A DNA stretch of 64,000 nt from Desulfovibrio sp. UCD-KL4C (GTDB lineage: Bacteria; Desulfobacterota; Desulfovibrionia; Desulfovibrionales; Desulfovibrionaceae). Positions 21,493 to 64,000 of this stretch are shown here, piece after piece. Position numbers and translations under genes: made by a program. The notes below the pieces were generated by a model, which was given only the letters and a program-made list of their open reading frames with translations, was not told where the DNA came from and made no database searches. How positions within the stretch are numbered: position 1 is the stretch's first letter; the number at the start of each line of letters is the position of its first letter. The stretch covers positions 186,001 through 250,000 of the forward strand of contig NZ_VCNC01000003.1 in the NCBI RefSeq assembly GCF_006210265.1, written 5' to 3'.

Positions 21493-22482
21493 ATGGGATC
21501 AAAAAATACTTTTTTTAAATATAATTCACCGTTACAAGCTGTGGAGGAGAAAACTCCTGAGCTAGTTACTGTTGTTTCCAAGAAGCTGAAAGATGGTACA
21601 AAGAATAAAAAAATACAGTATTGGCTTGTGCGTGAAACTCCCTCAGAGATGTTTGAACTGCAAGAGATTAATTCTAATAATGTTCCAACCGGTCCTGGTA
21701 AATTAATCTCCAGCGAGAAATTTTCTTCTGATTATTCTCTTGAACTGGATTATTGGCAAAAAAAAGTTCGTCCTTCTATGGAAAATCTGGACAAGACTGT
21801 GCAGCGTGGTGAAAACCATAGGGCGCATGGAGAGCTATACAGTGCAGAAATGGAGTATTCTGGAGCTCTTGAAGTTGACGAAGATAATGTTCGGGCAACT
21901 TTTGGACTGGGCCTTACTTACCTTGCAAAAGGCGACATAGAAAAAGCTCAGGAAATATTTTCTAAAGTTGTGCAGCTTGAATCTGCTTTTAGGGTAGAAC
22001 ATAAACATATGTTCAATGATTTCGGAATATCTATGCGTAAAACAGGAATGTACAAAGAGGCCTTGGAGTTTTATATTCGAGGTTTAACTTTAGATAGTGA
22101 TGATGAGAATCTATATTTTAATATAGCCAGAACCCATTTTGAAGCTGGCGACTGGGAAAATTGTTTTAAATATCTGACTATGTGTCTTGAAAAAAATAAA
22201 GGAGTAGAGGAAGCCCGCAAATTTTGCTCCTATCTTATTGAAAAAAGCACAACTGATGATGCTATGCTCCGTGAATTTGGTTCGTCCAAGATCGGTATTA
22301 AGCTCCGTAGTGACATCCTGTCTTTGCTGCGAAAAATGCAGATTGCTGCCGGAGTAGATTTAGATGAGGCTATTGAAAAGACTCATCAGATACGGGACCG
22401 TATGCTCGTAATTGAAGAGGAGGAAAGGAATACTCGTGAAATTGAGAAAGATCTTTATAAACTAGATGAAAATAATGGCTGA
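21493..22482 (+). CDS. Tetratricopeptide-repeat protein
   Basis: A protein of 329 residues, soluble, with at least three TPR units between about residues 113 and 245 (for example AEMEYSGALEVDEDNVRAT, and the next repeat EKAQEIFSKVVQLES). A charged C-terminal helix follows. An unclassified N-terminal domain of about 100 residues precedes the repeats. It is probably a scaffold for protein contacts. I take the ATG at 21493 because AGAGG stands eight bases upstream; an in-frame GTG at 21484 lies inside that site. The stop is 12 bases from the end of the converging potassium-channel gene. Confidence 0.75.
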   Translation: MGSKNTFFKYNSPLQAVEEKTPELVTVVSKKLKDGTKNKKIQYWLVRETPSEMFELQEINSNNVPTGPGKLISSEKFSSDYSLELDYWQKKVRPSMENLDKTVQRGENHRAHGELYSAEMEYSGALEVDEDNVRATFGLGLTYLAKGDIEKAQEIFSKVVQLESAFRVEHKHMFNDFGISMRKTGMYKEALEFYIRGLTLDSDDENLYFNIARTHFEAGDWENCFKYLTMCLEKNKGVEEARKFCSYLIEKSTTDDAMLREFGSSKIGIKLRSDILSLLRKMQIAAGVDLDEAIEKTHQIRDRMLVIEEEERNTREIEKDLYKLDENNG

Positions 22483-27266: not shown

Positions 27267-27453
27267 ATTACTCGCGAAGATCTTTTGATAACCTGTCTTT
27301 ACATATTTCTTTTGTCTAGTCGGTTCCTTCTTCTGCTCGCCTGCATTTACCTGAGTTTACATTAATGATGGAAGTGCTGCTTGATTCTTTACTCAAGAAT
27401 TCCGGCTTGGTTTATCCTTGAAAAACTATCAACAAATTTCGGAGGTCTTAACT

Positions 27454-34445: not shown

Positions 34446-35657
34446 TTACGGCATACTGAATTCACCTTTACTGATCAAACTTTCGATTTCAGCAACGTCT
34501 TTATCACCGCGACCAGATAGATTAACGATAATAATATTATCTTTGGGTAATGTCGGAGCTAATTTTACAGCATGCGCCAGAGCGTGTGATGATTCAAGTG
34601 CGGGGATGATTCCTTCTTTTTGAGAGAGTGTGAAGAAAGCTTCAACCGCTTCTTTGTCAGAAGCATGCACGTATTCTGCTCTGCCCAGATCTTTGAGGTG
34701 TGAATGTTCAGGGCCTACGCTGGGGTAGTCTAGTCCGGCAGATATTGAGTAAACCGGAGCAGGTTCACCTTTTTCATCTTTGAGCATGTAGGAATTGAAT
34801 CCATGCATTATGCCGGGTTTACCGAGACAAAGAGTTGCTGCGTGGTCGCCGGGATTAAGGCTGCGACCTGAGGGTTCTACGCCGATCAGTTTTACGGTTT
34901 CGTCTTTTACAAAATCAGAGAAAAGGCCGATCGCATTTGAACCTCCGCCAACGCAGGCAATGCAATAGTCAGGCAAGCGTCCTTCATCTTCAATACATTG
35001 CTCCCTTGCTTCCTTACCGATAACTGACTGAAAATCGCGGACCATAGATGGGTATGGATGTGGTCCTACTGCTGATCCTAGCAGGTAAAAAGATTCGTCT
35101 GCATCCTGAATCCATGCACCGAGAGCTTCGTCAACGGCTTCTTTAAGGGTGCACTGTCCTGACTGTGCGGGGACAACTTTTGCGCCCATCATCTGCATGC
35201 GGAAAACATTAAGTTTTTGCCTTTCAACGTCAACTGCGCCCATATATACAGTGCATTCCATTCCCATGAGAGCAGCGGTAGCGGCTGTGGCTACTCCGTG
35301 CTGTCCAGCTCCTGTTTCGGCAATGATTTTCTTTTTGCCCATGCGTTTGGCAAGCAGTATTTGACCTATGGTATTATTAACTTTGTGCGCGCCGAGGTGG
35401 TTTAAATCTTCTCGTTTTAGATAGATTTTAGCTCCGCCCAGCTCATTTGTCAGGTTGGAACAGAGGTAAAGAGGAGTAGGGCGACCGGAGTATTTTGAGA
35501 GATAATACTCAAATTCACGTTTGAATTCTTCATCGTCTTTATATTTATTGTAAGTGTCGGCAAGTTCGTTAAGGATCGGGATGAGTTGTTCTGGAACGAA
35601 TTGTCCACCGTATTCACCGAAAAAACCGTCTGCAGTAATTGTTGAATTGTCAGCCAT
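34446..35657 (-). CDS. trpB: Tryptophan synthase, beta subunit
   Basis: A 403-residue TrpB that condenses indole and serine to tryptophan, PLP-dependent and cytoplasmic. The PLP Lys92 is in [13 protein letters not shown], the indole-tunnel glutamate in AETGAGQHG, and the phosphate loop in [10 protein letters not shown]. It is of the standard TrpB1 type, expected to work with TrpA. The ATG at 35657 has AGGAG seven bases upstream; the frame extends upstream to an ATG at 35678 that overlaps this site. It stands alone: no other trp gene is adjacent on either side, and terminators flank it. A complete trp attenuator (35705-35846) precedes it. Confidence 0.96.
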
Positions 35658-35704
35658 TTTTTCTCTCCTGAATCTCATTTTAGACAGTGGGTCGCCGATA
35701 ATAA

Positions 35705-35737
35705 AAAACCGCGACCAGTTTTCACTGTCGCGGTTTT
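35705..35737 (-). terminator. trpB attenuator: terminator hairpin (segments 3:4)
   Basis: On the minus strand AAAACCGCGAC, a loop containing CAGTGAAAACTG, then GTCGCGGTTTT followed by further T (six in a row). This is a strong intrinsic terminator 48 bases before the trpB start codon, i.e. inside the leader transcript. Segment 3 is also complementary to segment 2 at 35783-35789. Confidence 0.88.
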
Positions 35738-35782
35738 AAAATTCTTTATTTATCAGTCACTTTCTAATGAACGTAACCTAAC

Positions 35783-35803
35783 CCGCGACGCATTACATGC
35801 GCC
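35783..35803 (-). promoter_or_regulatory. trpB attenuator: segments 1 and 2
   Basis: Segment 1 GGCGCAT (35797-35803) overlaps the last Trp codon of the leader peptide. It pairs with ATGCGTC (35787-35793) across a GTA loop to form hairpin 1:2. Segment 2 contains GTCGCGG (35783-35789), identical to the start of the terminator's 3' arm, so it can pair with CCGCGAC of segment 3 instead. These are the mutually exclusive foldings of a classical attenuator. Confidence 0.8.
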
Positions 35804-35846
35804 ACCACCAATTGCAAAGTGTAAAGTTAGGAGAAGAAATGTTCAT
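35793..35846 (-). CDS. trpL: trp leader peptide
   Basis: A 17-codon reading frame on the minus strand, MNISSPNFTLCNWWWRM, ending in TAA. Three consecutive Trp codons (TGG TGG TGG) stand at residues 13-15 and overlap RNA segment 1 of the attenuator. Ribosome stalling there when tryptophan is scarce would free segment 2 and prevent the terminator. The ribosome binding site is weak (GAAAGG about 15 bases upstream). The frame was too short for routine gene calling; the run of Trp codons and its place before trpB make it convincing. Confidence 0.85.
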   Translation of the reverse strand: MNISSPNFTLCNWWWRM

Positions 35847-35908
35847 AGTGAGGAGTATTTACCTTTCAACCTGAGAGTTGTCAATGGAGTGCGGACTCTT
35901 AATTGTAC

Positions 35909-35914
35909 ATTATA
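35909..35914 (-). promoter_or_regulatory. Possible -10 element of the trpL-trpB promoter
   Basis: A perfect TATAAT on the minus strand about 63 bases before the leader ATG, but with no good -35 at 16-18 bases. A TTGACA at 35884-35879 is a competing candidate, but its -10 would leave the leader peptide with no untranslated region. Confidence 0.4.
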
Positions 35915-63468: not shown

Positions 63469-64000
63469 TTATTTTTTCTTCCAGTTGCCAGCTGCGTCTT
63501 GAATCCACCATCCTGCTGGAGCTTTTTTTTGCCACACTTCAGTGAATATATTTTCAACTTTTTGAATTTCACTTCCGGGGATGTTCATGGATGCGGCTAC
63601 TTCTTCGTAAAGCTCATCTCTTGTCTTGTTATCCTGCGCTATAAGCCGGCGTACTTTTGCCGTTGCCGCAATGGTCATACCGTCATTGTTTCTCAGTTCT
63701 ATGAAACCGCTTTTGTTGATGCCGATATTTCCTGATTCATAATATGGGATCAATTGCTGGTGATTGCTTGCAATTGTCTGCTTTAATCCTCTTATTGCGG
63801 AGTTGGACTGTTTAAGTCCTTCAATGTCAGATTCTGTAACACTCTGAGCATTTGCCGCGGTAGGCGTCATAAATGCTATAAAATTGGACAGAGAAGAGCT
63901 GTCTTTGTTCGTTTTAGCTGGTTGCTGAGCATCAGTTCCATAAATGTCATCAACTATATTTTCCGCAGCTTTTTCGACCTGTGCAGCAGGAAAATAAATG
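63469..64000 (-). CDS. DUF1318 (YdbL-like) protein, 5' end outside the window
   Basis: The frame runs through the right edge without a start that must be used, so the N-terminus is missing; 176 residues are visible. The visible N-terminal stretch IYFPAAQVEKAAENIVDDIYG resembles the YnbE lipoprotein of the ynbE-ydbL pair. The C-terminal 100 residues match DUF1318/YdbL, ending in APAGWWIQDAAGNWKKK. In E. coli, YdbL and YnbE are periplasmic proteins encoded next to the AsmA-like YdbH; here the two parts appear fused. The ATG at 63870 is internal. Confidence 0.75.
   Translation of the reverse strand, partial: IYFPAAQVEKAAENIVDDIYGTDAQQPAKTNKDSSSLSNFIAFMTPTAANAQSVTESDIEGLKQSNSAIRGLKQTIASNHQQLIPYYESGNIGINKSGFIELRNNDGMTIAATAKVRRLIAQDNKTRDELYEEVAASMNIPGSEIQKVENIFTEVWQKKAPAGWWIQDAAGNWKKK

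Follow-up and report, generated by a model that had tools for sequence, protein, structure and literature searches.

A conserved tryptophan attenuator in front of a stand-alone trpB in Desulfovibrio sp. UCD-KL4C, and candidate sister attenuators in its aro-trp operon

The window, i.e. the whole 64,000-nucleotide stretch of the Desulfovibrio sp. UCD-KL4C genome analysed here, carries on its minus strand a stand-alone trpB that has a good Shine-Dalgarno sequence of its own and is taken to be monocistronic because the flanking genes sit on the opposite strand (Table 1). Upstream of this gene, the sequence reads as a 17-residue trpL-like leader, MNISSPNFTLCNWWWRM, that ends in a TAA stop codon at 35795-35793 and has three adjacent Trp codons (WWW, codons 13-15, 35810-35802). 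Segment 1 of the leader region, GGCGCAT (35803-35797), is complementary to ATGCGTC (35793-35787), which gives the 1:2 hairpin. Segment 2 consists of the same letters as segment 4 (GTCGCGG, 35715-35709), and segment 3, CCGCGAC (35733-35727), can pair with either of them. As expected for an attenuator of the trpL type, the 1:2, 2:3 and 3:4 pairings are mutually exclusive, as judged from aligned pair counts and from folds, and an intrinsic terminator with a T run precedes the structural gene. The six-T run that closes the 3:4 terminator (35708-35703) ends 45 nt before the trpB ATG, and not 48 bases before it as given in the first-pass annotation, whose leader, WWW codons and 1:2, 2:3 and 3:4 segments are all borne out by the sequence.

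Table 1. Coordinates of the trpB attenuator and of two candidate attenuators in the aro-trp operon. Positions are those of the window unless a locus is named; G000 is the genome to which the window belongs, and L006 is C3:325000-343000 of it.
Feature	Coordinates	Strand	Details and basis
Predicted promoter	35856..35884	-	-35 TTGACA 35884-35879, 17-nt spacer, weak -10 TAAATA 35861-35856
Leader peptide ORF MNISSPNFTLCNWWWRM	35793..35846	-	Sequence; first ATG in frame in 31/33 loci
1:2 hairpin, GGCGCAT / ATGCGTC	35787..35803	-	Covariation and folds; leader stop codon in and beside the loop
Segment 2, GTCGCGG, antiterminator partner of segment 3	35783..35789	-	Pair counts and antiterminated fold
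3:4 intrinsic terminator AAACCGCGACAG...GGTCGCGGTTT with T run	35703..35736	-	Pair counts and folds
trpB, 403 aa, TrpB1 type, monocistronic, own Shine-Dalgarno	34446..35657	-	TIGR00263; neighbours on opposite strand
Candidate TyrA-tail attenuator	L006:9180-9270 = G000:C3:334179-334269		WWWR tail, antiterminator from stop codon, terminator before trpE
Candidate head leader, FFYYFYFW	L006:3921-4095 = G000:C3:328920-329094		Strong terminator; before aroA' (DAHP-like) operon

When the RNA is folded from the leader ATG to the T run, the 1:2 hairpin and the terminator form together at -45.5 kcal/mol (z -4.15), an energy equalled by none of 200 shuffles. Both hairpins persist when the leader is removed up to the Trp codons. 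On further removal of segment 4, which mimics a ribosome stalled on WWW while segment 4 is not yet transcribed, the fold switches to the 2:3 pairing at -19.2 kcal/mol (equalled by 8 of 200 shuffles). Over the longer stretch 35658-35914, which the first-pass annotation had put forward for folding, the low energy is again found (-71, equalled by 1 of 200 shuffles); the terminator as a separate hairpin is not, being buried there in a longer helix. We scanned for a WW leader combined with a terminator and with an antiterminator no shorter than 6 nt. The trpB site is the sole match in the window, and 100 windows simulated with an order-2 Markov model give no match, though the site was already known when the thresholds were fixed. 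A broader leader scan of the whole window with a stricter terminator cut-off missed the trpB element, and the 3:4 terminator is absent from the list of a generic terminator scan of the window. By eye, no attenuator is seen before the DAHP synthase gene at 27418. The broader scan also returned one unrelated candidate, a short ORF with a WW pair at 63588 on the minus strand that is followed by a strong hairpin and a T run and is perhaps a gene end. Intergenic terminators are common, and an ordinary terminator might resemble an attenuator by chance. In the present case the probability of this is negligible, as the upstream gene is divergent and there is hence no incoming transcript to end, none of the simulated windows gives such a site, and conservation with covariation (see below) contradicts it.

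For comparison with relatives, we used the best 80 of 407 loci confirmed from named genomes, together with the trpB matches of 59 family and 17 genus genomes, the family being taken as Desulfovibrionaceae on the strength of its named homologues. WW or WWW leaders are found upstream of this trpB in loci labelled Desulfovibrio, Halodesulfovibrio, Desulfomicrobium and Desulfomicrobiaceae. Among the loci examined, the complete element was not seen before Firmicutes homologues, termite-gut copies or most rumen copies; two Firmicutes loci (L060 and L067) have TTG-started WW frames without such a terminator. The resulting alignment (A1) holds 33 elements. Left out of it were loci with an incomplete element (L117, L121, L129, L134, as well as L020 and L033, which have a WW ORF), near copies (L123, L125), loci with no such leader (L022-L027, L030-L032, L034-L037) and the genus mates of L117.

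All three helices of A1 show two-sided changes, the covariation in relatives that the first-pass annotation had proposed to look for. In the 1:2 helix, 98.8% of 165 cells are paired and 30 are changed on both sides, with a covariation of 0.506 vs 0.197 for shuffles (none of 500 as high). The corresponding figures are 93.4% of 228 cells and 6 two-sided changes for the 2:3 helix, with a covariation reached by 1 of 500 shuffles, and 91.5% of 328 cells and 14 two-sided changes for the 3:4 helix, with a covariation reached by none of 500, all of these shuffle tests being inflated by kinship among the rows. Two of the five measures, the pairs with two-sided changes and the further pair types, lie within the shuffles for 1:2 (57/500 and 431/500) and 2:3 (138/500 and 485/500) and are modest for 3:4 (6/500 and 43/500). 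Sliding the partner arm by 1-3 columns lowers the pairing to 25-61%. Columns 87, 154 and 172, located in segments 2, 3 and 4, respectively, shift jointly from C, G, C to U, A, U in five rows, of which four (L002, L007, L118 and L008) belong to the same clade as the window copy and the fifth (L138) is distant. Swapping of the 2:3 arms between species (own -15.8, swapped -15.0 kcal/mol) is a weak test, because the arms share composition and are too alike, and the helices are judged here from the aligned pair counts. A longer pairing of the leader start with the stretch past segment 2 seemed convincing on inspection and was nevertheless rejected, as no more than 6 of 32 own pairings ranked among the top 5% of swaps.

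Rfam gives no match to the leader at the gathering threshold, and we attribute to chance the 11 matches that appear when E values up to 10 are allowed. Among these chance-level matches over the stretch, RF04312 (the trpB motif) has the second-highest bit score, and its authors describe it as a riboswitch candidate that occurs at times before trpB and for which a classic attenuator is not excluded (PMC11109978, in the part available to us). The hairpins could accordingly be read as a riboswitch or a protein-bound leader of that kind, with incidental Trp codons. We consider this highly improbable: RF04312 scores 18.0 bits (E 5.2) where its gathering threshold is 59, which falls short of membership; what stays constant across loci is that the first ATG opens a frame containing WW or WWW, with a variable leader body; and the letters of the 1:2 helix change while the pairing is kept.

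Upstream of the leader, TTGACA or TTGACG is present in 49 of 49 loci, a number that includes close kin, in a -35 search that demanded at least 5 of 6 consensus matches, and the spacing between the -10 and the leader ATG is 6-11 nt in 43 of them. No Shine-Dalgarno-like motif was found before the leader ATG in any of the 49 loci examined. In 31 of 33 loci, the first ATG located 28 nt or more past the start of the -35 opens a frame that runs through to the Trp codons; the leaders of L136 and L138 have an earlier ATG that is out of frame. A near-consensus -35 combined with no Shine-Dalgarno before the leader implies that the leader may begin at the RNA 5' end. On the basis of these motifs, transcription is predicted to start within a few bases of the leader ATG (35846), and the leader RNA may start at its own ATG in the manner of Sinorhizobium meliloti trpL.

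The attenuator in front of trpB is real and conserved. Of the 17 genus genomes, the window's own among them, 16 retain it, and of the 23 sampled family genomes that carry this trpB (G000 and L117-L138), 19 have it complete, the model R1 having been built from rows that include the scored family loci. The first-pass annotation had held that loss of the WWW codons or of the alternative pairings in close relatives would speak against the element. Such a loss occurs once, in G007 (L117; C5, upstream of 63460), where TrpB is 92% identical and neither Trp codons nor a terminator are present, and is set against the 16 genus genomes that keep the element. An upstream TTGACA persists in G007 though the whole attenuator is lost. 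In G038, the WW and the 1:2 pairing are kept and the T-run terminator is absent, and G003 and G040 have no element. Most simply, the element would be ancestral to the trpB clade, with several subsequent losses. Two further R1 matches, L239 and L244, have GC-rich terminators but lack a Trp leader, and were dismissed as chance.

The gene behind the attenuator scores 615 bits with NCBIfam TIGR00263 (cut-off 392), i.e. as TrpB1, and is far below the cut-offs of the TrpB2-like models TIGR01415 and PRK12391. A second clear trpB in the genome, also TrpB1 and 54% identical to the window copy, is part of a complete aro-trp operon (trpEGDCFBA at C3:334-341 kb, with its own trpB and trpA) at ∼108 kb from the window trpB. 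The Trp attenuator before a lone trpB described in the first-pass annotation is supported, and of the two explanations offered there, a split trp pathway is contradicted by the intact operon, and a second trpB that supplements another is supported by the operonic copy retrieved by the genome search. A TrpR search (PF01371) of the own genome returned no match. According to the part of a comparative study available to us, which reconstructs TrpR regulons for eight lineages of Gammaproteobacteria, both TrpR and TyrR are missing from other classes (PMC5343134).

In a quick tree of 63 TrpB sequences (no bootstrap), all 29 attenuated rows fall within one clade of 40 with an SH-aLRT of 99. This clade, which includes 11 rows without the element, some of them on contigs labelled Burkholderiales, is nearer to Firmicutes TrpB than to 7 of 8 operonic family TrpB, the eighth (L139) being a long branch. 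The contigs of L022-L027, which are labelled Burkholderiales, Betaproteobacteria or Proteobacteria, carry this trpB type at 72-74% identity, an occurrence that suggests mislabelled bins or transfer.

Taken together, a ribosome-mediated Trp attenuator on a stand-alone trpB that provides Trp-starvation-inducible indole salvage beside a complete biosynthetic operon is a very probable reading of the locus. Transcription would begin at or just upstream of the leader ATG. With ample charged tRNA-Trp, the ribosome would reach the stop codon at the 1:2 loop and mask segment 2, and with segment 2 masked the 3:4 terminator would halt transcription short of trpB. When Trp is scarce, the ribosome would instead stall on WWW and mask segment 1, upon which 2:3 would pair and trpB would be transcribed, and TrpB would then convert free indole and serine to Trp.

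The salvage part of this reading is drawn from genomes in which the rest of the pathway is not found. No trpA match is found in 9 of 59 family genomes, of which six (G008, G011, G033, G034, G039 and G052) retain the attenuated trpB and yield no trpE match at E 1e-60. The other three (G018, G022 and G042) are also without this trpB, and G018 and G022 are <75% complete. Completeness reaches 90% or more in five of the nine (G008, G011, G034, G039 and G042), and in four of these five the attenuated trpB is kept with no trpE match. As the attenuated trpB is kept in six genomes without trpA or trpE matches, we read it as an enzyme for salvage of outside indole; a TrpB under Trp control where no indole would be made points to such a source. 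Alternatively, the attenuator may be real and trpB a spare beta subunit for TrpA in biosynthesis. The TIGR00263 score places the protein in the type that is usual with TrpA, and trpA is present in most family genomes that carry this trpB. In the six sampled genomes without a trpA or trpE match, however, a spare beta subunit would have no partner, and we regard this possibility as unlikely.

In addition to the element before the stand-alone trpB, the main operon appears to contain a second Trp attenuator, the leader of which would be the WWW tail of the full-size TyrA. In L006, TyrA ends in SWWWRENNT, and its stop codon continues into GGGAGAA. The 114-nt tyrA-trpE spacer contains a seven-T terminator whose 5' arm includes TTCTCCC, the complement of GGGAGAA. 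A trpE match is obtained in 16 of 17 genus genomes, the exception being G122 (84% complete). A script detects the WWW tail and the T run in each of the 16, and the antiterminator is recognised by eye in all of them, with an interruption in L314. Across the family, 47 trpE sites were read (30 + 17), and an in-frame TyrA WW tail lies directly upstream in 32. A spacer terminator is present in 16 of these 32 and absent in 16; in eight of the latter, tyrA overlaps trpE or ends at most 40 nt away, and in the other eight none was found in a spacer of ∼95-214 nt. Compared with shuffled spacers at 12 sites, the antiterminator has p<0.03 in 10 and 0.067 and 0.073 in the remaining two, and own arms of the tyrA-trpE pairing average -21.9 vs -17.3 on swapping, a comparison in which the arms again share composition. 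Eight of the 17 later sites, at which TyrA is located elsewhere or could not be found, have in its place a WW frame of 34-133 open codons upstream of trpE. Outside the family, a WW tail is absent from TyrA in 28 of 28 loci. Within the family, TyrA ends in WWW in L286, L287, L289, L290 and L294 though the trp operon is elsewhere or not found, and because TyrA proteins not followed by trp genes also end in this way, a captured leader peptide was dropped as the simplest reading of the tail. The WWW tail is probably older than its putative use as a sensor. We found no description of a TyrA-tail leader in the open-access literature searched, which did not include the classical comparative attenuator surveys.

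A third candidate is located at the head of the same operon. Upstream of the aro-trp genes, MQTFNSSGASQSFFYYFYFWCTHACGRVEVCS is followed by a terminator, and mixed F/Y/W runs recur in the head leaders of relatives. Among loci with a leader, Trp is part of the run in 21 of 21 in which aroA' and trpE are at most 7 kb apart on the same strand, compared with 6 of 14 where the trp operon is elsewhere or trpE was not found (Fisher 0.00013, uncorrected for kinship, with runs and both linkage groups picked by eye). Loci with Trp nearer the N-terminus and outside the run (L269, L271 and L275) were counted as without; L151, L170 and L172, in which Trp is present and linkage is unknown, were dropped (24/24 if included), and no leader was obtained at six loci (L157, L161, L163, L165, L168 and L281). 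An all-aromatic leader peptide of this kind is not described in the open-access literature searched. On these grounds it is reasonably probable that tiered ribosome-mediated attenuators run the aromatic synthesis of the family, comprising a Phe/Tyr/Trp head leader, a TyrA WWW tail before trpE (with segment 2 overlapping or adjoining the tyrA stop codon) and the salvage-trpB leader. The WWW tail would probably have come first and the sensor afterwards, and the head leader would tend to drop the Trp of its run where no trp genes follow. This putative three-attenuator set, which rests on sequence evidence, is more interesting than the trpB element alone.

Further candidate leaders were noted elsewhere. 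At L240 (G013:C11:146812-146936), the leader MKKITCNCFWWCWRHSK and a terminator precede a TrpB2-like gene (label by eye), possibly another lone trpB type under a Trp attenuator. At L242 (G008:C2:404549-404694) and L243 (G049:C229:3345-3488), a WW leader and a terminator precede a phenylacetate-CoA-ligase-like gene (label by eye). The two host genomes belong to the same genus, and one has no trpA; the gene might serve Trp synthesis from indoleacetate.

Published RNA-seq data for Desulfovibrio hydrothermalis, in the portion available to us, bear on both trp loci (PMC4162548). At 26 vs 0.1 MPa, the trpB DESAMv2_21414, which from its locus number would sit outside the operon, is down by log2 3.0 (∼8-fold), and the aro-trp cluster 21548-21557 is down by log2 2.5 to 3.9 (PMC4162548). 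At 10 vs 0.1 MPa, trpE, trpG and trpD are down, and pheA, aroA and tyrA have no entry for this comparison, nor do trpC and trpF, which lie farther down the same operon (PMC4162548). The latter pattern fits a control point between tyrA and trpE and is no demonstration of one; the authors read their data as a pressure response, and it was pressure, not Trp, that was varied (PMC4162548).

The trpB element is a classical mechanism on an unusual target, i.e. Trp attenuation of an apparent salvage enzyme, apart from the biosynthetic operon, that is kept where biosynthesis seems lost. An attenuated salvage trpB would offer a sequence-readable test of how the cell ranks making vs scavenging Trp. The candidate sister devices (TyrA tail and head leader) matter more than the trpB element. 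Should the TyrA tail indeed function as a leader, the sensing of an amino acid would not require a dedicated small leader peptide, and short-ORF searches of intergenic regions would miss such cases. Head-leader Trp codons that track the trp genes behind them would amount to a natural experiment on the meaning of leader codons. A Trp attenuator before trpB in this group is not described in the open-access literature searched, the classical comparative attenuator surveys not being among it.

In Escherichia coli, trpL encodes a short leader with Trp codons, and 1:2, 2:3 and 3:4 alternatives with a terminator precede trpEDCBA. The trpB element shares with trpL the Trp codons in a short leader, the three alternative pairings and the terminator before the gene, and differs from the E. 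coli trp operon in its single trpB target, in the lack of a TrpR match in the genome and in having no Shine-Dalgarno-like motif before the leader. The general mechanism of trpL attenuation is set out in PMC7298713; according to the part of it available to us, S. meliloti trpL likewise has a leader RNA that begins with the leader ATG (predicted in the present case), consecutive Trp codons and attenuation without Trp repression of initiation, whereas it precedes trpE(G) rather than trpB (PMC7298713). With YtgCR of Chlamydia trachomatis, the putative TyrA-tail device has in common that a WWW within a full-size protein reports Trp shortage; unlike the TyrA tail, YtgCR acts in trans via a repressor, and starvation leads to termination, not antitermination (PMC7755916, as far as the part available shows). 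A putative, database-derived attenuator ahead of the Desulfovibrio vulgaris aroA' supraoperon was listed in 2005, in the same place as the mixed Phe/Tyr/Trp leader described here; in the parts of that source examined, the listing gives no leader peptide, no tyrA-trpE site and no trpB site (PMC1173090). The RF04312 trpB motif is similarly a terminator-type leader that sometimes precedes trpB, but, in the part of its description available, is reported from Firmicutes and Fusobacteria, and its curated score is not reached here (PMC11109978). Finally, TrpB2_o and other stand-alone TrpB, as presented in the available parts of the respective papers, resemble the window TrpB in lying outside the trp operon, whereas the window TrpB scores as TrpB1 and not as TrpB2 (PMC1854888, PMC11917138).
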